Below, one piece after another: positions 3,541 to 58,324 of a DNA stretch of 64,000 bases. The notes below the pieces were generated by a model that worked only from the letters and a program-made list of their open reading frames with translations, made no database searches and was not told the DNA's origin. The stretch covers positions 1 through 64,000 of the IMG/VR virus record IMGVR_UViG_3300028008_000005; one strand, written 5' to 3'. Source of the stretch: a virus. The translations under genes were made by a program, and so were the position numbers. The number at the start of each line of letters is the position of its first letter. Position 1 is the first letter of the stretch.

Positions 3541-5745
3541 ATGGTTAAACAATCCAAGTCAATCTTAGCTCGCCTTCTTGCCAACGAGAACATTACTGTT
3601 CAACGTGGCAATTATCCTACTGCGTACTTTGATGTCGAAAAGCGTGTACTTGGTCTTCCACTTTGGGAAGACTTTGGTAAAGACGTTGAAGATCTTCTGA
3701 TAGGCCACGAAGTAGGCCACGCACTCTTTACCCCTGCAGACGGTTGGCATGATTCACCTAAAGATCTTAAGATTCCAAGGTCATTCTTAAATGTCGTAGA
3801 AGATATACGCATTGAAAGAAAAATCCAATCTATGTATCCTGGCCTTGTTAATTCTTTTAAGAAAGGCTATAAAGTATTTTCCGATCAGAACTTCTTTAAG
3901 ACAGAAGGTAGAGACTTACAAGAATATTCTTTAATCGATCGAATAAATCTGAAAGCCAAGCTTCGAGACTTAATTAATGTTGACTTCAGCCTTGAAGAAA
4001 AACCATATGTAGACAAAGCTTTTAGTACCGAAACTTGGGAAGATGTTCTAGAAGCTTCTAAGGCTTTGTATGAATTTATGAAGGATCAAGAAGAAGACGA
4101 AATACCTTCACCTGAAGATTCTAGCGATGAAGAATATCAAGATTTTTCTGATGAAGATCACGAGTCTGAATCATCTTCTACTGGGTCTGAGAGTGATGAA
4201 AAAGATACAGAATCCGGCGGTGATGCTCAGTCTTCCAGCGAAGACGATGATGATGATGATAAAGAGGGTGAAGAGGTAAATCAAGATTCTGTCTCTCAAA
4301 CAGATCAAGAGTCTAACCAAGATCCTGTAGAAGAAGAAAAGGCTGCTAGTGACTCTTCGGATGGGGATGATCAAAGCGAAGAATCTGATATTGAATCAGA
4401 AACAGATATGGCTTTTAGAGAAAACGAATCTAAGCTAGAACTTAAAAGCACAACAGGATCTAATCAGCCTAAATATCTTGCTCCTATGTCAAGATTCGTT
4501 GCTAGAAATATTATTGTACCATACCCTAAATTAAAAGAAGCACGAATTAAAGCAAAAGAATATTGGTACAGCCACACAGAAAGAGAACTATCAGAAGCAT
4601 TTAAAGACTTTGAATCCGATACTAAAAAAGTTACATCTTTGTTAGCAAAAGAGTTTGAGATGCGCAAAGCTGCTTTTAGAACTATTCGAGCTTCAGAATC
4701 TAACTCTGGCACAATTAACGTTAACAAGTTACATAGCTACAAATACGAAGAAGATATCTTTCAAAAGGTAACAAACCTTGCTGATGCCCAATCTCACGGT
4801 ATGGTTATGTTAGTAGATTTTTCTGGATCTATGCAGAGCACAATCGGCGATGTTATTAACCAAACTCTAAGCCTAATATCTTTTTGTAAAAAAGTAAACA
4901 TCCCGTTTGAAGTTTATAGTTTTACTACTCGCCAGCAATGGAATTCTGATATAGATTTGTCAGCGCTAAGCTCTGGAGAAATAGATCCTTCTTCGGTTAG
5001 TATGCTACACCTTCTTAGCTCATCATTTGGTAAAACAGATTATCAAGAAGCCTATAGAGAACTTTTCTATACTGGCTATCTGTTTCAAGAAAATAGAAAT
5101 CAGATCTCCCAGTTAGAAAGGTTGGGAGGAACACCTTTATCTGAAGCCCTTATGGTAGCAGACTTAGTTATTTCTGACTTTAAGAGAAAACACGGGATTC
5201 AAAAAACAAATTTAGTAGTTCTGTCTGATGGCGAAGGCTCACCACCAAGAACAGTTTATGAACGATTAGATCCAAATATTTCGGTATCCCATAGTGAATA
5301 TGCTATTGACTTTAATAATAAGATAGTCAACGTTTACCGTCAATTTATATCTAGTCATTTAGTTAAAGAACTTTCTAAGAAAGGGATAAATACAACTTGT
5401 TTCTATATAACCTCTAATAATAGAGATATTAATTCTTGTTCCTATCTAATCTGGACTAATAGCAATAAGAATGATCATCCGAATCGCCTTGGTATTACTG
5501 AAGTAGATGAGGAGATCAGAAAAGGTTATAAGAAAGAAAGATTAGTTTTATATAAGGATACGTGTGGGTATAACCAGTTCTTTGTTATTAAAGCTTCTGG
5601 TAAATCCCTTGAAACCTCTATAGAGACCTTAGAGATTAGCCCCGATGCTTCTAAGTCACAGATCAAAAAGGCCTTCTCTAAGTACTCTAAGTCTAAGAAG
5701 ACTAACCGTGTCCTAGCCACTAAATTTGCGGAGGCAATAGCTTAA
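3541..5745 (+). CDS. CobT-like VWA-domain protein with HEVGH metallopeptidase motif
   Basis: Large (734 aa) partner of the adjacent CobS-like AAA+ ATPase; such CobT-like proteins are common in marine T4-like phages. An N-terminal zinc-peptidase-like motif HEVGH occupies residues 56-60, with a possible third ligand in VVEDIRIE (about 86-92). A very acidic Ser/Asp/Glu-rich linker covers about 185-310. The C-terminal von Willebrand A domain has a MIDAS site: D426-x-S-G-S430, a Thr near 531 (GGTPLSE) and LSDGEG near 562. CobS-CobT resembles a metal chelatase or MoxR-VWA chaperone pair. In phages its substrate is unknown, and cobalt chelation should not be assumed. GGAG lies 7 nt before the ATG. 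Confidence 0.8.
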   Translation: MVKQSKSILARLLANENITVQRGNYPTAYFDVEKRVLGLPLWEDFGKDVEDLLIGHEVGHALFTPADGWHDSPKDLKIPRSFLNVVEDIRIERKIQSMYPGLVNSFKKGYKVFSDQNFFKTEGRDLQEYSLIDRINLKAKLRDLINVDFSLEEKPYVDKAFSTETWEDVLEASKALYEFMKDQEEDEIPSPEDSSDEEYQDFSDEDHESESSSTGSESDEKDTESGGDAQSSSEDDDDDDKEGEEVNQDSVSQTDQESNQDPVEEEKAASDSSDGDDQSEESDIESETDMAFRENESKLELKSTTGSNQPKYLAPMSRFVARNIIVPYPKLKEARIKAKEYWYSHTERELSEAFKDFESDTKKVTSLLAKEFEMRKAAFRTIRASESNSGTINVNKLHSYKYEEDIFQKVTNLADAQSHGMVMLVDFSGSMQSTIGDVINQTLSLISFCKKVNIPFEVYSFTTRQQWNSDIDLSALSSGEIDPSSVSMLHLLSSSFGKTDYQEAYRELFYTGYLFQENRNQISQLERLGGTPLSEALMVADLVISDFKRKHGIQKTNLVVLSDGEGSPPRTVYERLDPNISVSHSEYAIDFNNKIVNVYRQFISSHLVKELSKKGINTTCFYITSNNRDINSCSYLIWTNSNKNDHPNRLGITEVDEEIRKGYKKERLVLYKDTCGYNQFFVIKASGKSLETSIETLEISPDASKSQIKKAFSKYSKSKKTNRVLATKFAEAIA

Positions 5746-49872: not shown

Positions 49873-50352
49873 ATGGCTAAATTTAATAGATTGCTTGACG
49901 CAGACTTTCAACCACCAAGGACTTGGATTCTTGATCTATCTCTATCTTATGATTCAGATTGTCTAAGCGAAAACGAAGCGAGTTCGCTTAAAGCAGTTGG
50001 TGTAAAAATTAACAAGAATATGAAGATTACCGTACCAAAGAAGTTTAAGACTGATTTGGCCTCTGTTCCCCGTTTCGGATGGATTTTTGTTGCCCCTTTT
50101 GATATTGCCAGAGCAGGTGTAGTACATGATTATATGTATTATTGCATTCGACAATATCGATCTAGTATGGATGAAGCTGGCATTCCAGAAGATCCTTATT
50201 TAATCTCAGAAGCCAAAACTGTTGCTGATAAGGTATTTAAAGAAGCAATGGACGTTTCAGCAGATCATGTTTCTGGCTGGAAAAAATGGGTAGCTTGGAA
50301 AACAGTATCATTGTTTGGATGGAGCTCAATTGTTCCAAGAGACGAACTATAG
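49873..50352 (+). CDS. DUF1353-like protein
   Basis: 159 aa. KKFKTDLASVPRFGWIFVAPF...ARAGVVHDYMYYC matches the DUF1353 phage family (T-D-x-A-S-x-P...A-x-x-H-D). Often near lysis or tail genes; function unknown. Stop overlaps the next GTG (TAGTG). Confidence 0.75.
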   Translation: MAKFNRLLDADFQPPRTWILDLSLSYDSDCLSENEASSLKAVGVKINKNMKITVPKKFKTDLASVPRFGWIFVAPFDIARAGVVHDYMYYCIRQYRSSMDEAGIPEDPYLISEAKTVADKVFKEAMDVSADHVSGWKKWVAWKTVSLFGWSSIVPRDEL

Positions 50353-50669
50353 TGTGGATACTGCTAATTAGAGCAGCCATTACCGGCATATTTGGTTCTG
50401 CATTTGGTAAATGGTTTCTTTCTACCCGCATGGGAATGTGGTTTCAAAAGAAACTAAATGCCTTTATGGAATATCTTGCAGTCAAGTATGATATACAGAT
50501 TGCTAAGAAAGAAGCTAAATGGCGTTCTGATTACCCTCTTTTAGCAGAAAGAATTGATAAGCTTGAAGCTTGGACGCATCCTCCAGTAGCACCCGGTGGA
50601 GCAACAGAATTAGTTAAAGAGATAGAAACTCTAAAAAAAGAAATAGATTTATTAAAACGAAAGAAATAA
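50352..50669 (+). CDS. membrane-anchored coiled-coil protein
   Basis: 105 aa, GTG start overlapping the upstream TAG. Hydrophobic N-terminus (WILLIRAAITGIFGSAFGKWFL), then a charged helix and C-terminal coiled coil (ELVKEIETLKKEIDLLKRKK). Position after the endolysin suggests a lysis role, but no holin family is evident. Confidence 0.6.
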   Translation: MWILLIRAAITGIFGSAFGKWFLSTRMGMWFQKKLNAFMEYLAVKYDIQIAKKEAKWRSDYPLLAERIDKLEAWTHPPVAPGGATELVKEIETLKKEIDLLKRKK

Positions 50670-50680
50670 AGGAGGATGTT

Positions 50681-51976
50681 ATGAGAAAGTTACTTACAAT
50701 GATTACATTTTTTCTTGTTGGCTTTGTTGCTGGCGGAGTTAATGGTCAAACATATACAGAAGAAGTAGCAAGCATTATTAACGAAAACTGCGTGGTCTGT
50801 CACAGAGCAGGCGGCATTGGACCTATGAGCTTTGAAACATATGAGCAAGTAAGACCATGGGCACCACTTATCCAAATGAGAGTGGCTAACCGTGAAATGC
50901 CTCCCTATGCATACGATCATGGAATTGGTATTCAAGACTTGCAAGGTGACTGGCGACTATCACAGGATGACATAGACACTGTTGTTGCGTGGGTCAATGA
51001 AGGATCTCAATACGGCAATCCAGACACAGTATTACAGTCAGTTGACCTAGGCGATCCAGAAGCATGGAGCTTCGAAGGAGACTTTGGAGTACCAGATGCA
51101 ATCATACCAAGTGTAGCAATCGATATTCCGGCAAACGGTAACGACCTATGGCATAAGCATTTAGTACCTACAGGCCTTACTGAAGATCGCTGCATTAAAG
51201 CAGTACAGGTAAAGCCTCGTGGTGATGCAAAAGCAGTAGTGCATCACGCTAACTCCAATGTTGTTATTGACGGAGGTCGTGAAGGTATGCTCACGGAGTA
51301 TGCTATGGGAAAGTGGGGAGAGATCGTCCCAGAGGGAGTATGCAGGCTACTTCCAGGAAACGCAGAAATCAGATGGGATATTCACATGTTCCCGGGTGGA
51401 CTTGGAGCAATGGCACCCGGATCAGTTATCAAAGACAACGTGGTAGAGATTGGTCTTTGGTTATATACCGAAGAGGAAAGCCAAGGATTGAAATACAAAC
51501 AAGATTTGAGTCTGTATCGCCTAGGCAACCAGGACGATATTACGATACCCCCAAATGGTTACTACATGACTCAAGGTTTACACAGTTTTGATCATCCAGT
51601 TAGACTAGATAGTTTTCAACCACATGGACACTTGCGTATGAACGCAGCAAGTTTGGAAATATTCTATCCAGAGACAGGACGCACAGAACAGATTAGCCAA
51701 GTAAGTAATTGGAGTGCAACATGGCATCACAGTCATTTATATGACCCAGATGTAGCACCACTCTTACCAGCAGGCGCAGTGATTGTTCTGAAGCAATGGT
51801 ACGATAACACATCAGACAATCCAAATAACCCAGATCCAGATATGTGGGTAATGGGTGGCTCAAGAACAGGCGATGAGATGACGCACGCGTGGCTTGCTAT
51901 TACGCATCTAGATGACGAAGGATATAATAGGCTAAAAGATGAAAGAAATGAAAGAGTTGAGCTTGCTAATAGATAA
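50681..51976 (+). CDS. secreted cytochrome c / copper type II monooxygenase-like protein (first copy)
   Basis: 431 aa, AGGAGG upstream. Signal peptide ends near NGQ (residues 21-23). The haem-binding site is C37-V-V-C-H41 with a possible axial Met in REMPP (M73). The downstream PHM-like region holds the pattern of copper ligands: H188-H189 and H235 (CuH site), H315-x-H317 and a late Met (CuM site), as in peptidylglycine monooxygenase. Predicted periplasmic redox enzyme; substrate unknown. Extremely unusual for a phage. Its DNA looks more G+C-rich than neighbouring genes. Confidence 0.78.
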   Translation: MRKLLTMITFFLVGFVAGGVNGQTYTEEVASIINENCVVCHRAGGIGPMSFETYEQVRPWAPLIQMRVANREMPPYAYDHGIGIQDLQGDWRLSQDDIDTVVAWVNEGSQYGNPDTVLQSVDLGDPEAWSFEGDFGVPDAIIPSVAIDIPANGNDLWHKHLVPTGLTEDRCIKAVQVKPRGDAKAVVHHANSNVVIDGGREGMLTEYAMGKWGEIVPEGVCRLLPGNAEIRWDIHMFPGGLGAMAPGSVIKDNVVEIGLWLYTEEESQGLKYKQDLSLYRLGNQDDITIPPNGYYMTQGLHSFDHPVRLDSFQPHGHLRMNAASLEIFYPETGRTEQISQVSNWSATWHHSHLYDPDVAPLLPAGAVIVLKQWYDNTSDNPNNPDPDMWVMGGSRTGDEMTHAWLAITHLDDEGYNRLKDERNERVELANR

Positions 51977-52097
51977 TCGCAATAGGTTAGATATAGATAG
52001 GGATTGGGAAGAATACCAAGAACTAACTGAAGAGATCCAACTTTTACAAAATGATTTAGTAACACTATCAATTATGGGAGAAGATTTAAATGAATAA
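51948..52097 (+). CDS. 49-residue acidic coiled-coil protein
   Basis: ATG inside the previous gene's end, stop inside the next gene's start (8-nt overlap). Helical, charged (LLIDNRNRLDIDRDWEEYQELTEEIQLLQNDLVTL). No family recognised; its overlaps suggest a real coupled ORF in the redox cassette. Confidence 0.5.
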   Translation: MKELSLLIDNRNRLDIDRDWEEYQELTEEIQLLQNDLVTLSIMGEDLNE

Positions 52098-53334
52098 AAT
52101 AAACGCTGCGGCAGGAACATTAGGTGTTCTATTGCTAATGCTTGGACTTAGAGCAGAAGCGCATGACGATGTAAAGATCGACTACGCAGAGAACGTAGCC
52201 CCTATCTTTGTAGAACAATGTCAAAGCTGCCACCGTGAAGGTGGTATTGCACCGTGGGCAATGAGTGACTTTAGAATGTTGCAAGCATTCGCCCCTGCAA
52301 TCCGTGAAGCAGTTACAACATTAGAAATGCCACCCGGGCAGATTGATCGCAAATATGCAAAGGATATTATCAATCATCGCACACTCAGTCATACAGAAAT
52401 GGAGACTATTGTACAGTGGATTGATGCAGGCGCTCCTGTCGAAGGTGACAGAGATCCGCTAACAGAAACTGTATACTCAACATCAGAGTGGGTACACGGT
52501 GAGCCTGATATGATTGTCTATGTACCAGCACAAGAAATTCCTGCTGGTCCTTCTGCGATTCCATATCGTTATGTTGGTGTAGACTTAGGACTAACTGAAG
52601 ACAAATGGCTTCGTGGTTCAGAGTTTTTGCCTTCAGAGCCTACAGTAATGCATCACATGCTAAACTCAGTAAGTGTACCGGGAGAGCGTAATGGCAACAT
52701 CTTAGGCACACAAGGTGGCGGACAAGAAGAAATGAACTACGCTAGTGTGAGTGCATATGTACCAGGAGGCGATCCAGAATTTTATGACGAGAACACTGGT
52801 GGTTTGTTAAGAGCAGGTTCAACAGTAAACTTACAGTTACACTACACACCAGACGGCAGAGCAAGAACTGACGAAGCAAGAATTGGTTTGTACTTTCACG
52901 ATGAAGGTGTAGTACCAGAAGAGAGAATGGCAGGCGACTGTGCTTGTATCTTCCCTAACAACTGGACAACTATCCCTGCATTTGATCCTAACTTTGTACA
53001 AACAGCAGAAGTAGTTCTAAAGCAAGATGTAATGCTGCACACATTCTTACCACACATGCACTTCCGTGGCAAGAGTATGAAAGCAACTGCATTCTATCCA
53101 GACGGCACTGTAGAAGAACTAATTGATGTACCAAGATATGAATATGCTTGGCAACTATCATACACGTGGAGAGAGCCTAAGTTCTTACCTGTAGGTACAA
53201 GACTGTTTGTAGAGGGAGCATTTGACAACTCAGCAGAGAATAAAATGAATCCCGATCCTAGCAGAGACGTACCGTGGGGTCAGATGAGCGAAGATGAAAT
53301 GTTCTTTGGAGCATTTACTTGGAAAAACCTATAA
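52090..53334 (+). CDS. secreted cytochrome c / copper type II monooxygenase-like protein (second copy)
   Basis: 414 aa paralogue of the 50.7-kb gene. Signal peptide ends near AEA (residues 22-24). Haem site C44-Q-S-C-H48 with Met80 in LEMPP as likely axial ligand. Copper ligands: H188-H189, H251 (LQLHY), H322-M-H324 and a Met in the [15 protein letters not shown] region. The haem site and HH pair have the same spacing as in its paralogue, but overall similarity is low, so the two may act on different substrates or as a redox pair. Followed 10 nt later by the PqqA-like peptide. Confidence 0.78.
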
Positions 53335-53344
53335 GGGGACTAAT

Positions 53345-53416
53345 ATGTGGACTAAACCAGCTTATGAAAATATAAGACTTGGATTTGAAATCACTATGTA
53401 TTTTAGTGTTAGATAA
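53345..53416 (+). CDS. pqqA: PqqA-like PQQ precursor peptide
   Basis: 23 residues, the classic PqqA length. Starts [18 protein letters not shown] and ends YFSVR. Identical to Klebsiella PqqA (MWKKPAFIDLRLGLEVTL...) at 13 of 23 positions from memory, including the key Glu15 and Tyr19 (E-x-x-x-Y) that are crosslinked to form PQQ. AGGGG at 53334-53338 gives 6-nt spacing. No pqqB, C, D or E is in the window, so the host must provide them. Confidence 0.85.
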
Positions 53417-53445
53417 TCTATAACTTGTCAAACTAGGAAAAATAA

Positions 53446-53775
53446 ATGTCAGAAGCAGAAATAAAAAAATCTGGTCATCATCCTGCCGATACAAATGGTG
53501 ATGGTAAAGTAAGCCCTAAAGAACAAGATATGTACATGGAATTTAGGCGTAAAGAGCTTGAAGACCAAGATGCAATGCGGGATGCACAAAGGAAGATGGC
53601 ATGGTTTGCTTTAGGTGGTATGCTTCTTTATCCTTTTGCAGTTGTAGTCGCATCCATTGCAGGATTAGACCAAGCTCAGGCAACTCTCGGTGATATGGCA
53701 CCTACATATTTTGTTGCTGTTGCTGGTATTGTTGCTGCCTTTTTTGGGGCTCAGGCATTTGCTAAGAAACCATAA
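53446..53775 (+). CDS. EF-hand membrane protein, holin-like
   Basis: 109 aa. DTNGDGKVSPKE is a perfect EF-hand calcium loop, followed by a charged helix and two transmembrane helices (MAWFALGGMLLYPFAVVVASIAG and YFVAVAGIVAAFFGAQAF). This family is frequent in marine T4-like phages, sometimes called holin. AGGAAAAATAA upstream supports the ATG. A 16-bp stem terminator follows. Confidence 0.7.
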   Translation: MSEAEIKKSGHHPADTNGDGKVSPKEQDMYMEFRRKELEDQDAMRDAQRKMAWFALGGMLLYPFAVVVASIAGLDQAQATLGDMAPTYFVAVAGIVAAFFGAQAFAKKP

Positions 53776-53779
53776 TAAG

Positions 53780-53820
53780 ATTAATACGGGTAGATTTGCC
53801 TTGAATCTACCCGTATTAAT
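53780..53820. terminator. strong bidirectional terminator between convergent genes
   Basis: TTAATACGGGTAGATT (53781-53796) pairs perfectly with AATCTACCCGTATTAA (53804-53819), loop TGCCTTG; A780-T820 extends it to 17 bp. It separates the plus-strand late block from the minus-strand island. Confidence 0.85.
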
Positions 53821-53850
53821 AATTAACGGGTGATTTTCTTATGTTTTTCC

Positions 53851-54327
53851 CTAAGGGGTGTTAGACACTAGTAAGCCAATCATAACCGCGATTATCATAG
53901 TTCCTATTATACAAACTGCCCCTATAGTAATTACATCGGACCAGAACTTTTTATTTTCTGCTTCCGCCTTTGCTTTCGCTGCTCGTGCATTCATAATTCT
54001 TCTACGCTCCGCCATCATATCTTCATAAAATGCACCCTGTCCTGACCATATCAAATATTCTCGCAATTCTTTTTCAAGTTGCATGATTTTATGTTTTGCG
54101 GCTGTTGCTTCAAGTGCTTGTGCTTCGACACTAGTACCAGAAAGAAGTTTAGATGCAATTGGCGCATTTTGACTCAGATGGTTGGCTTTAATAATATTAT
54201 CTTTGGCATCAAAAAACTTGCCAAACATCTGCGCCATGTCTTGCGCTTCTTTTCCGGCATCCATTGCCTTTCTAATGGTTTTATAGGCACCGTTTGCTAT
54301 AGAGACTGCTGCTGCGATTTCTATCAT
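53851..54327 (-). CDS. helical membrane-anchored protein
   Basis: 158 aa. IEIAAAVSIANGAYKTIRKAMDAGKEAQDMAQMFGKFFDA, helical stretches and a C-terminal transmembrane helix (VITIGAVCIIGTMIIAVMIGLLV). A family I associate with marine T4-like phages. Own late promoter upstream at 54412-54419. Function unknown, possibly virion or envelope. Confidence 0.7.
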   Translation of the reverse strand: MIEIAAAVSIANGAYKTIRKAMDAGKEAQDMAQMFGKFFDAKDNIIKANHLSQNAPIASKLLSGTSVEAQALEATAAKHKIMQLEKELREYLIWSGQGAFYEDMMAERRRIMNARAAKAKAEAENKKFWSDVITIGAVCIIGTMIIAVMIGLLVSNTP

Positions 54328-55193: not shown

Positions 55194-57290
55194 TTATCTC
55201 CCGTATTGTAAGGATATTAATTCTTTGTATTTCTTATCTGTGCCAATCATTCGCAGCATAGAGTTTCTATCATTCTGTACACTGCTCGTCGGCATACCTC
55301 TGTCAGTGTAAAAGCTAACATCTTGTAGTTGTCCGCTGTATTGTGAAAACGCACTGTTACGACCCATTAAGAATACAGTCAAGCTTTGATCTGTGAATCC
55401 GCCAGAGTCTTGCATGTTACTAGCAAACTCGTCCAAGTTTTGTTCTAGTTGTTCGTCAGACATATTTTCAGCTTGTGCGTTTGCTTTGTCTGTAGTCTCC
55501 TGTTCTTCTTGACTTGGTGGCGCAACATTAAAACGTGAGAAATCAGGTGGTGCTGTTGAAGTTAGAGCATCGCTTATCGATCCACCACTAGAGAAGGCTT
55601 GATTAGTTTGACTACCAAAGTTCTGGTCTGAAGTTGTTACACCAGATGACGATAAAGTGTCTGTGAAATCTTGGGTATCAGACTGTTGATTAGTTGCCTC
55701 AATTGATAGTGCTGAAAATATTATAGAAGGCCCTCCAAAGCTAAAATCAAGGTTAGTCTCTTCGCCGAAAGATTGTTTCCCGCCGTTAAAAGTTTGACCG
55801 CTATCTCCCATGCCCATACTACCTGAGTTTTGTTCTATTAAGTCTTCAACAATGCTTTCTTCGGTTATTTCACTAAAGCTTTGAATTTGGGATTGTTGCT
55901 GTGCCTGTGTTATGCTGTTTAAAGCGAACTTGTTGCTTGATGTTATCGATGACTGAACTAAGTTTGCACTAGATTGTATCTGGTTCATAGCAATGGCCAC
56001 AGCGTCTACTCTTCTAGCTGCGTTTTGCCTTGTTGCTACTGGACCAGATCGACTATTAACAGGTGCTGCTTTGACTACAGCGACTTCAATCATGTCTTCT
56101 CTTATGAGTAAATTGTCATCAGAATTACTCATAACTTCGGGTTGCGTGTAATTTTCTTCTTTTTTTACATCTACAATTTGCTTTTCTATTTCAGGTGTAA
56201 ATTCTTCATATGTTTCCTCTATCTCTGGTACAACTACCTCATCGAACTCTTGCTCCATCATGTCTAGTTCTGGTCCACCACCAAAGTCATCCAGAGAAGA
56301 ACCACCATTAAAAAGATCAGGTGTTGATCCATCAAATGTATCAGCTACCATTCCGTTAAAGTCATCCAGAGAAGAACCACCAAAAAACTCCTCTTGAGTT
56401 TGACCAGCTGTCAATGTATCTTGATATGTATCAAAAGGATCCGGGCCGAAATTAAGTGAAGGATCATCAACAAAATCAAATACATTATCACCAAAGACTT
56501 CAGTACCATCAAAGGATCCTACAGGATCAAAAATGCCACACGACTGTGGATTGTCGTCACATTCATCTACAGCTACGTAATTAGATAGAGTGGAGTTTAC
56601 AGTATCTAATACTGAATCAACACCGCTCGCATTCTCATACGCACCTGTTACTGTATTAAACTGCATTGTAAATGGAATATTAGAAACCCATTTATTCTTT
56701 TTATATTCAAGAACATTATATTGACCAATACTCAAATCACCTGCTGTACCTACCGTAGTGTTGTGCGACTTTATCTTTATTTTATCGTATCTAAATTTAA
56801 TATCACCTGTGTCAAAAATCTTTACTTCAAAGCTATTTAATCTATTAACATTATAATATTCTGGTATATCGTACCAGCCAAACGTGGCAGTATTGCTTGT
56901 TGTTTTATACCAAGGGTTAGGATTATATTCTACTGCTAAGTCTGTCCAAAGACCGAAAATAGAATAACTCAATGCATCCGCTTTGCTACCGTTTCTCCAT
57001 TGCTCGGTATTGTACATTTCAGCTTCTAAGTCGTATCCACTACAACAAAAAGTATGTCCCTTAACACCATTATCTTGGAAGTTCACTACACCGTTGTAAG
57101 TGACCCATGCTTTGTCGTATGTGTTATCATAGAAAGGAAAGTCAAACCCTAGATCAACTTGAGCTTGTTGGAGGTCATCGATATCAAGCTTTACTGCTGA
57201 GTTATCATTTCTTAAGTCTACAAGCACAGACGGATATTGCCCATAAGCAATTCCGCTCAATAGCATTAAGGCTATAAATAACTTTTTCAT
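55194..57290 (-). CDS. secreted NIDO-like domain protein
   Basis: 698 aa. Signal peptide MKKLFIALMLLSGIAYG. An N-terminal globular domain of about 220 residues (KAWVTYNGVVNF...FGLWTDLAVEYN...GWYDIPEYYNVNRLNSFEVKIFDTGDIKFRYDKI) resembles the NIDO extracellular domain. Then an acidic, repeat-containing region (GGSSLDDFNG twice), a Gln/Ser-rich region and a C-terminal helical part. Likely a secreted or virion-surface protein. Coupled to the N/T-rich gene upstream. Confidence 0.65.
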   Translation of the reverse strand: MKKLFIALMLLSGIAYGQYPSVLVDLRNDNSAVKLDIDDLQQAQVDLGFDFPFYDNTYDKAWVTYNGVVNFQDNGVKGHTFCCSGYDLEAEMYNTEQWRNGSKADALSYSIFGLWTDLAVEYNPNPWYKTTSNTATFGWYDIPEYYNVNRLNSFEVKIFDTGDIKFRYDKIKIKSHNTTVGTAGDLSIGQYNVLEYKKNKWVSNIPFTMQFNTVTGAYENASGVDSVLDTVNSTLSNYVAVDECDDNPQSCGIFDPVGSFDGTEVFGDNVFDFVDDPSLNFGPDPFDTYQDTLTAGQTQEEFFGGSSLDDFNGMVADTFDGSTPDLFNGGSSLDDFGGGPELDMMEQEFDEVVVPEIEETYEEFTPEIEKQIVDVKKEENYTQPEVMSNSDDNLLIREDMIEVAVVKAAPVNSRSGPVATRQNAARRVDAVAIAMNQIQSSANLVQSSITSSNKFALNSITQAQQQSQIQSFSEITEESIVEDLIEQNSGSMGMGDSGQTFNGGKQSFGEETNLDFSFGGPSIIFSALSIEATNQQSDTQDFTDTLSSSGVTTSDQNFGSQTNQAFSSGGSISDALTSTAPPDFSRFNVAPPSQEEQETTDKANAQAENMSDEQLEQNLDEFASNMQDSGGFTDQSLTVFLMGRNSAFSQYSGQLQDVSFYTDRGMPTSSVQNDRNSMLRMIGTDKKYKELISLQYGR

Positions 57291-58324
57291 TAATTAGGCA
57301 TGTTAGGTGAGGAGGTCATTTTCCTAACACTGCGTTTGGTTACACCAGGCACATCTATAAGATTCTCTTCCCATGCAACGCCCGCCTCTTCGCCAATCAA
57401 ACCTTGGTAAGGGCATGGAGTTCCTGCCATCTTCATAGCAGTCCATACACGCTCATCTTGACACATTAAAGATACAGCAGCAACTCTCATACCCATATCG
57501 TATATTGTCTTAGCAAGTTTAATTCGTTCACAGTTTGTATCTGTAACCGACTTGCCTGCCGACAAACCAAATATTTGAGTTTGAACAGCACCTGCTACAC
57601 CTGTAGTACACAAGTCTTGTGAGAATGAAGCACCTATAGAAGGAGCAATAGCAGATGGCGGAGGTGACTCTATTTTCTGAGTCACGGTTTGAGTTGATTG
57701 TGATTGATTAATGTTCTGGTTTACATTATTGTTTGTGTTATCAGTTGTTACCTCACTAACGCTGTTGTTATTATTAGATGACGAAGATGTAGAAACGTTG
57801 ACGTTTGTATTGTCACTAGTTGATGATGACACATTGGTGTTATTACTAGTACTAGAATTGTTACTGGTAGAAGTATTAACATTGGTGTTGCTATTTGTAT
57901 TGGTGTTTGTGTTGGTATTCACATTGGTATTACTGTTTGTATTGTTACTTGTATTGTTGCTTGTATTATTTGAGGTATTGATATTAGTATTCACATTAGT
58001 ATTACTAGTGCCACCACTCATCACGTTATTGTTAGTATTAACATTAGTGTTGCTACTTGTGCTAGTACTGGTATTTGTATTGTTGTTAGTATTTGTGTTT
58101 GTATTATTATTGGTAGCAGTACTAGTGTTGGTATTTGTATTGTTGTTAGTATTTGTGGTAGTTGCAGTCGAGGTCGATGTTGAAGTCGACGTGATATCAG
58201 TTTCCGCAGTGGATCCTTCGCAGTATTGGGTTCCAGCAGTACAAGTGCCAGTTGCTTGTGCCAATACAGGGTTAGACAATATAGGAGTCATCAAAAGCAT
58301 AGCAAAGAGATATAAACGTTTCAT
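57290..58324 (-). CDS. secreted Asn/Thr/Ser-repeat protein
   Basis: 344 aa. Signal peptide MKRLYLFAMLLMTPILSNPVLAQA, Cys pair CTAGTQYC, then about 170 residues of almost pure Asn, Thr and Ser in NTN/TNT units, and a C-terminal globular domain with four or more Cys (LCTTGV, NCERIKL, LMCQDERVWTAMKMAGTPC). The DNA repeat is imperfect. This design suggests an extended stalk displaying a small domain. A minus-strand late promoter precedes it. Confidence 0.7.
   Translation of the reverse strand: MKRLYLFAMLLMTPILSNPVLAQATGTCTAGTQYCEGSTAETDITSTSTSTSTATTTNTNNNTNTNTSTATNNNTNTNTNNNTNTSTSTSSNTNVNTNNNVMSGGTSNTNVNTNINTSNNTSNNTSNNTNSNTNVNTNTNTNTNSNTNVNTSTSNNSSTSNNTNVSSSTSDNTNVNVSTSSSSNNNNSVSEVTTDNTNNNVNQNINQSQSTQTVTQKIESPPPSAIAPSIGASFSQDLCTTGVAGAVQTQIFGLSAGKSVTDTNCERIKLAKTIYDMGMRVAAVSLMCQDERVWTAMKMAGTPCPYQGLIGEEAGVAWEENLIDVPGVTKRSVRKMTSSPNMPN

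Follow-up and report, generated by a model that had tools for sequence, protein, structure and literature searches.

Does a 72-bp open reading frame (ORF) in a viral genome encode a genuine PqqA, the precursor peptide of the cofactor PQQ, and what would a phage gain from carrying it? The locus that raises this question lies in a 64,000-nucleotide stretch (hereafter the window) that comprises positions 1 to 64,000 of IMG/VR record IMGVR_UViG_3300028008_000005. The complete record is a virus of 114,689 bases with T4-like genes throughout, on both sides of pqqA; pqqA has phage genes around it and does not lie in host DNA or at the margin of a prophage. A first-pass annotation, prepared from the sequence alone, had proposed that the ORF is a phage-encoded PqqA overlooked by standard gene calling, and had added that no phage pqqA was known. 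Features of the locus are compiled in Table 1.

Identity and conservation of the window ORF

Table 1. Features of the pqqA locus, with positions given in window coordinates.
Feature	Position	Strand	Basis or remark
mo1, distant mo2 paralogue	50681..51976	+	CxxCH and PHM-like domain; directly upstream of mo2
mo2, 414 aa, exported	52090..53334	+	CxxCH heme motif and PHM/dopamine beta-hydroxylase-like copper monooxygenase fold (predicted)
Shine-Dalgarno-like AAGGGGA	53333..53339	+	5 nt before the pqqA ATG; AAGGAG(A) in close relatives
pqqA, PQQ precursor peptide	53345..53416	+	Profile matches, conservation in relatives
Glu15 codon	53387-53389	+	Within pqqA
Tyr19 codon	53399-53401	+	Within pqqA
EF-hand-like small protein	53446..53775	+	Downstream neighbour; kin of Melnitz and HTVC008M ORFs; context only
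Permuted (two-piece) tmRNA, tag ANDEAFALAA	44386-44769	+	Rfam RF04321, 97.3 bits

Inspection of the ORF reveals 23 codons followed by TAA in an intact frame, where the start codon lies 10 nt 3' of the mo2 stop and the next ORF begins 29 nt 3' of pqqA. The good ribosome-binding site credited to it by the first-pass annotation is present, with spacing as listed in Table 1. The Pfam search proposed at that time as a check (PF08042) returned 41.2 bits (E=1.5e-10) against a cut-off of 21.1, and the NCBIfam equivalog TIGR02107 returned 49.1 bits (E=3.4e-13) against a cut-off of 20, such that both scores are about twice their curated cut-offs. This peptide is the single PqqA match across the whole 114,689-base record. 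Its length, W-x-K-P start, R-x-G-x-E-x-T-x-Y core and terminal Arg are those of bacterial PqqA as described by the two profiles. Bacterial PqqA is usually encoded beside pqqBCDE, with orphan copies known from a methylotroph (PMC9851590), whereas the window copy lies in a phage record.

Relatives were collected with mo2 as an independent bait, where the best 80 of 114 viral stretches were kept and loci were chosen by mo2, not by the peptide. A PqqA peptide lies behind mo2 in 18 of these 80 loci, corresponding to ~7 independent versions after near-identical copies are merged; the gap between the two genes is 1-12 nt in most loci and 138 nt in one. The identical peptide occurs in a 99.87%-identical contig, L002, and diverged pqqA genes occupy this position in six or more further phage lineages, all of which keep Glu15 and Tyr19. 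Every mo2-anchored peptide retains Trp, Lys, Pro, Arg, Gly, Glu, Thr and Tyr, and the Glu-x3-Tyr pair is invariant in 23 window-type copies. No decayed pqqA was seen in the mo2 slot of relatives. Pooled pN/pS is 0.22 in the window type and 0.066 in the methylotroph type, and a Shine-Dalgarno sequence is present at 23/23 window-type loci and 117/119 loci of the second set. By these sequence measures, pqqA is under purifying selection and the window ORF is a genuine PqqA that displays every testable feature of membership. The proposed identity has withstood each comparison, namely profile scores, conservation of Glu15 and Tyr19, and intactness in related phage contigs, among which no broken or decayed copies were seen. 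One candidate for decay, MCYLGFAITLYISRKK in L183 and L208, was rejected as the tails of unrelated single-helix proteins.

When mo2-bearing virus records were searched whole, PqqA was found in 10 of 45; most mo2 phages are without pqqA. Because those phages hold different small genes behind mo2, we regard this place as a variable cargo slot.

Distribution, setting and ancestry of phage pqqA

To extend the comparison beyond mo2, a back-translated pattern, KPAxxxxRxGxExTxY, was searched in IMG/VR and matched at least 120 stretches, while a narrower KPA[YF] pattern gave 19 matches. With mo2-anchored loci included, 154 loci were collected, which reduce to 120 at 95% identity. Matching stretches are mostly of Methylophilaceae type and most loci encode one 23-residue peptide or close variants; one identical methylotroph-type peptide is encoded by 69 loci through 58 different DNA sequences. 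Pattern residues are fixed by design in loci selected in this way, so their invariance is not evidence, while synonymous variation and the mo2-anchored set do count.

Two groups of candidates were set aside. Loci encoding MWKKPAFIDMRLGLEVTLYISNR (L058, L072, L123, L125, L127, L130-132, L135) lie mostly at contig edges; we read them as bacterial pqqA beside prophages and left them out of the phage count. The MWKKPAFIDMRLGLEVTLYISNR peptide is an enterobacterial-type PqqA, and in many 'viral' contigs its gene lies within a few hundred bases of the contig end; this suggests either that prophages insert next to a bacterial pqq locus or that binning has spilled over. 'Acinetobacter phage MD-2021a' (L229, CAKLQF020000010.1 105210-111263), which carries ppk, pqqB, pqqC, pqqD and a radical SAM gene, appears to be a bacterial chromosome under a phage name and was rejected as a phage with pqq genes.

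Methylotroph-type pqqA occurs in many unrelated phage backbones that lack mo1 and mo2. In ~26 non-redundant loci, a major head protein gene (phrog_371) lies 139-281 nt upstream, and the encoded proteins are 65-73% identical to annotated capsid proteins; elsewhere the upstream gene encodes a T4-type single-strand DNA-binding protein (three loci) or the RegA translation repressor (six). Downstream of pqqA, 65% of 99 loci have a hairpin-plus-T terminator, versus 11% in shuffles. Upstream, the element CATG[A/G]TTTT, mostly 80-100 nt from the gene, is present in 31/101 loci versus ~0.7 expected from the background rate. The leader element TCATGGTTTT, of this CATGRTTTT type, lies 60-110 nt upstream in L004, L016, L028, L038, L042, L060, L069 and others; it is common to different backbones, and a TATAAT-like box and a small hairpin come after it. 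No Rfam family covers the element in the loci scanned, and consensus sigma-70 promoters upstream of methylotroph-type pqqA show no excess over shuffles. The element is possibly a methylotroph promoter carried with pqqA, and judging from these flanking signals the methylotroph-type gene looks like a portable transcription unit. These copies are often equipped with a terminator and leader element of their own, whereas the window copy lies behind mo1-mo2. A sigma-70 and terminator scan of window positions 50200-53900 gave nothing above shuffles, and pqqA there seems to be the last cistron behind the pair. Separately, a ROSE_3 heat-shock thermoregulator (Rfam RF02523, 54.3 bits) was observed at L018:1445-1510 (+), in a pqqA-bearing phage contig.

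A tblastn search of 50,697 phage records with the methylotroph-type peptide matched nine named Methylophilales/Methylophilaceae isolates: Venkman, P19250A, MEP301, MEP401, MEP402 and four Melnitz strains. That is to say, pqqA is present in 6/6 of the cultured OM43/LD28 phage kinds that the search surfaced, where isolates without the gene may exist. It is never annotated as such in the six: no feature is placed at pqqA in Venkman, P19250A, MEP301 or MEP402, and an opposite-strand ORF is called over it in Melnitz, as in the uncultured podovirus MW202481. The suggestion that gene calling misses this ORF is borne out by cultured phages as well as by the window. None of the papers that describe Melnitz, MEP401/402, MEP301 and Venkman mentions a pqq gene. 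As in the window phage, pqqA stands alone in the cultured phages, and Melnitz is likewise T4-like. Their peptides are 55-63% identical to that of the window over the aligned part and, unlike the window gene, their pqqA does not lie behind a monooxygenase.

Indications of ancestry and host diverge. The DNA polymerase of the window record shares ~50-55% identity with its counterparts in marine T4-like phages, most of which infect cyanobacteria. The window PqqA looks gamma/betaproteobacterial. In sampled Gammaproteobacteria (392 and 274 genomes), searches found neither a PqqA of its exact subtype nor any of the methylotroph subtype. For the permuted tmRNA the indicated ancestry is alphaproteobacterial, at odds with the look of the peptide; permuted tmRNAs also occur in two further phage records with mo2 and pqqA (G046, G048), and none was found in seven long mo2 records without pqqA, a comparison of small numbers and fragments. 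The Melnitz tmRNA is permuted and of alphaproteobacterial type, which has been taken to indicate that this phage descends from SAR11 myophages (PMC9004378). A Pseudomonadales MAG contig (L216, JALRBG010000283.1) was rejected as host evidence, as it is chimeric: cellular DNA of 63% GC and phage DNA of 41% GC meet near base 4,750.

Elsewhere in this phage, genes for a heme oxygenase (PF01126; L222:3572-4129, record bases about 107,572-108,129) and a carbamoyltransferase (PF02543/PF16861; L222:1215-3008, record bases about 105,215-107,008) are present. Window positions 57290-58324 (-) encode a low-complexity Asn/Thr/Ser repeat protein (NTNTNSNTNV...) of 344 aa with a signal-like N-terminus.

The copper-monooxygenase-like neighbours

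Each of mo1 and mo2 has a signal-like N-terminus and a CxxCH motif. AlphaFold models of the two are of low confidence (mean pLDDT 64.5 for mo2 and 66.5 for mo1), and Foldseek returned PHM and dopamine beta-hydroxylase (DBH) as best matches, with E-values of 8e-9 for mo2 versus PHM and about 2e-11 for mo1 versus PHM/DBH. Candidate copper ligands are invariant in the family alignments, namely H188, H189, H251, H322, H324 and M404 in mo2 and H188, H189, H235, H315, H317 and M400 in mo1; their correspondence to PHM (CuH His-His, His; CuM His-x-His, Met) was set by motif and order. The Pfam Cu2_monoox_C profile matches only weakly, in relatives. Taken together, mo1 and mo2 are predicted to adopt a PHM/DBH-type copper monooxygenase fold with both ligand sets. 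They differ from PHM/DBH in the addition of an N-terminal c-type heme motif and share 12-16% identity with them. Among cellular proteins, the closest found, at ~48% identity, are redoxin-cytochrome-PHM fusions from gammaproteobacterial MAGs.

Within IMG/VR, mo2 is present in 114 viral stretches and the mo1-mo2 pair (window 50681-53334) is phage-conserved in more than 100 contigs; the pair was not found among INPHARED phages. A literature search returned no paper that couples the name of this monooxygenase with phage auxiliary metabolic genes. The association of pqqA with two PHM-like copper monooxygenases that bear heme motifs seems not to have been described before, and the family, with its more than 100 viral contigs, represents a second oxidative module that is apparently undescribed.

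Proposed function and its alternatives

In PQQ synthesis, PqqE acts with PqqD to join the Glu and the Tyr of PqqA by a cross-link, and the cofactor is finished by later enzymes (PMC10906245). PqqE was found in none of 10 pqqA records (the window record included), a PQQ_2 repeat domain in none of 14 and a PQQ alcohol dehydrogenase (TIGR03075) in none of 50. On this basis the phage seems to contribute nothing but the substrate, although the absence of PQQ enzymes is only suggestive, as many records are fragments. Stand-alone pqqA is a known arrangement, as a Hyphomicrobium strain holds five copies, three of which lie outside pqq operons (PMC9851590). Peptide supply is not always limiting: in Acetobacter, overexpression of pqqAB raised PQQ by only 29%, versus eightfold for the full cluster (PMC7936290).

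We consider it likely that phage pqqA is a functional auxiliary metabolic gene whose sole contribution is the consumed substrate, and the phage most likely relies on host PqqBCDE. In the model that we propose, the peptide would be translated from the monooxygenase transcript during infection, host PqqD would bind it, host PqqE would cross-link Glu15 and Tyr19, and a host protease, PqqB and PqqC would complete PQQ. The phage gene would in this way replenish the substrate for as long as host enzymes last. Because each PQQ costs one PqqA whereas the enzymes are reused, a 72-bp gene would be the cheapest upkeep of PQQ synthesis after host shutdown. The cofactor would then serve host periplasmic quinoprotein dehydrogenases, which would pass electrons to c-type cytochromes. 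Whether the exported heme/copper proteins mo1 and mo2 act in the same periplasmic oxidation route is doubtful and constitutes the weakest step of the model. Carriage of pqqA by phages of methylotrophs for which PQQ is relevant, including the six cultured kinds surfaced, supports the PQQ-supply reading.

Alternative accounts of the gene were weighed against the same evidence. With only 23 codons and no annotation in cultured phages, the ORF could resemble PqqA by chance or as a decayed relic; the probability of this is negligible, as it is refuted by profile scores at twice the cut-offs and by conservation, where ~7 diverged syntenic versions are intact with pN/pS of 0.22 and no broken copies were seen. 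A neutral passenger, taken from a cell together with the monooxygenase pair and riding in the variable cargo slot without benefit, would fit the turnover of small genes behind mo2 and the many phages that have no pqqA there. We hold this to be unlikely in view of purifying selection, retention of the Shine-Dalgarno sequence and the separate occurrence of pqqA in many unrelated backbones without mo1/mo2.

The remaining alternatives accept a selected peptide and assign it another role. Since PqqA, PqqD and PqqE form a 1:1:1 complex (PMC10906245), surplus peptide could compete within it, such that the phage product would act as a decoy or regulator that titrates PqqD/PqqE, or would yield a different modified peptide rather than PQQ. 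Nothing would oblige a decoy to retain the Glu and Tyr that are cross-linked, yet these residues and the whole core are kept, which renders this reading very unlikely. Even less probable is superinfection control, in which extra PQQ would fill a surface PQQ receptor of the PqqU type used by rival phages. PQQ does block a PqqU-targeting E. coli phage (PMC12124388), but that case concerns PQQ importers, whereas the link here is to PQQ-using methylotrophs and oxidative genes. Supply of substrate to host PQQ synthesis remains our preferred reading.

The claim that no phage pqqA was known does not stand. Coutinho et al. reported in 2020 PqqA and methanol dehydrogenase in the Lake Baikal Methylophilaceae phage population VP_266 (PMC7678222), and a 2026 paper includes viral pqqA, pqqD and pqqE in its list of phosphorus genes (PMC13188868). 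VP_266 resembles the window phage as a T4-like phage with PqqA, there proposed to boost host PQQ. It is a phage of freshwater methylotrophs in which pqqA accompanies a phage methanol dehydrogenase, in contrast to the window phage with its two PHM-like copper monooxygenases, no PQQ dehydrogenase found in the record, and another peptide subtype. From the loci collected here, phage pqqA is not new, yet it is far commoner than the literature found would indicate, and the monooxygenase-linked, marine T4-like setting is a new form of this barely noticed gene.

Phage pqqA looks like a common viral way of keeping a host cofactor supplied during infection. In the broadest form that we would put forward, pqqA is an overlooked gene, near-universal in phages of PQQ-dependent methylotrophs and carried across unrelated backbones as a self-contained cassette of leader, gene and terminator, often behind the major capsid gene; its presence is largely shown and its function is a proposal. 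In a marine T4-like lineage it would further be joined to an exported heme/copper monooxygenase pair, such that the phage provides one oxidation step and also supplies the cofactor for the step that follows. This combined picture is plausible, although we stop short of calling it probable. Cultured pairs for direct study already exist, namely OM43 H5P1 with Venkman and FZCC0133 with MEP401/402. Because standard annotation misses the gene, any effect of phage pqqA on methanol and C1 oxidation in oceans and lakes has gone uncounted. If the proposal is true, many phages would control a host redox cofactor through its consumed peptide precursor alone, at the unusually cheap cost of ~70 bp.
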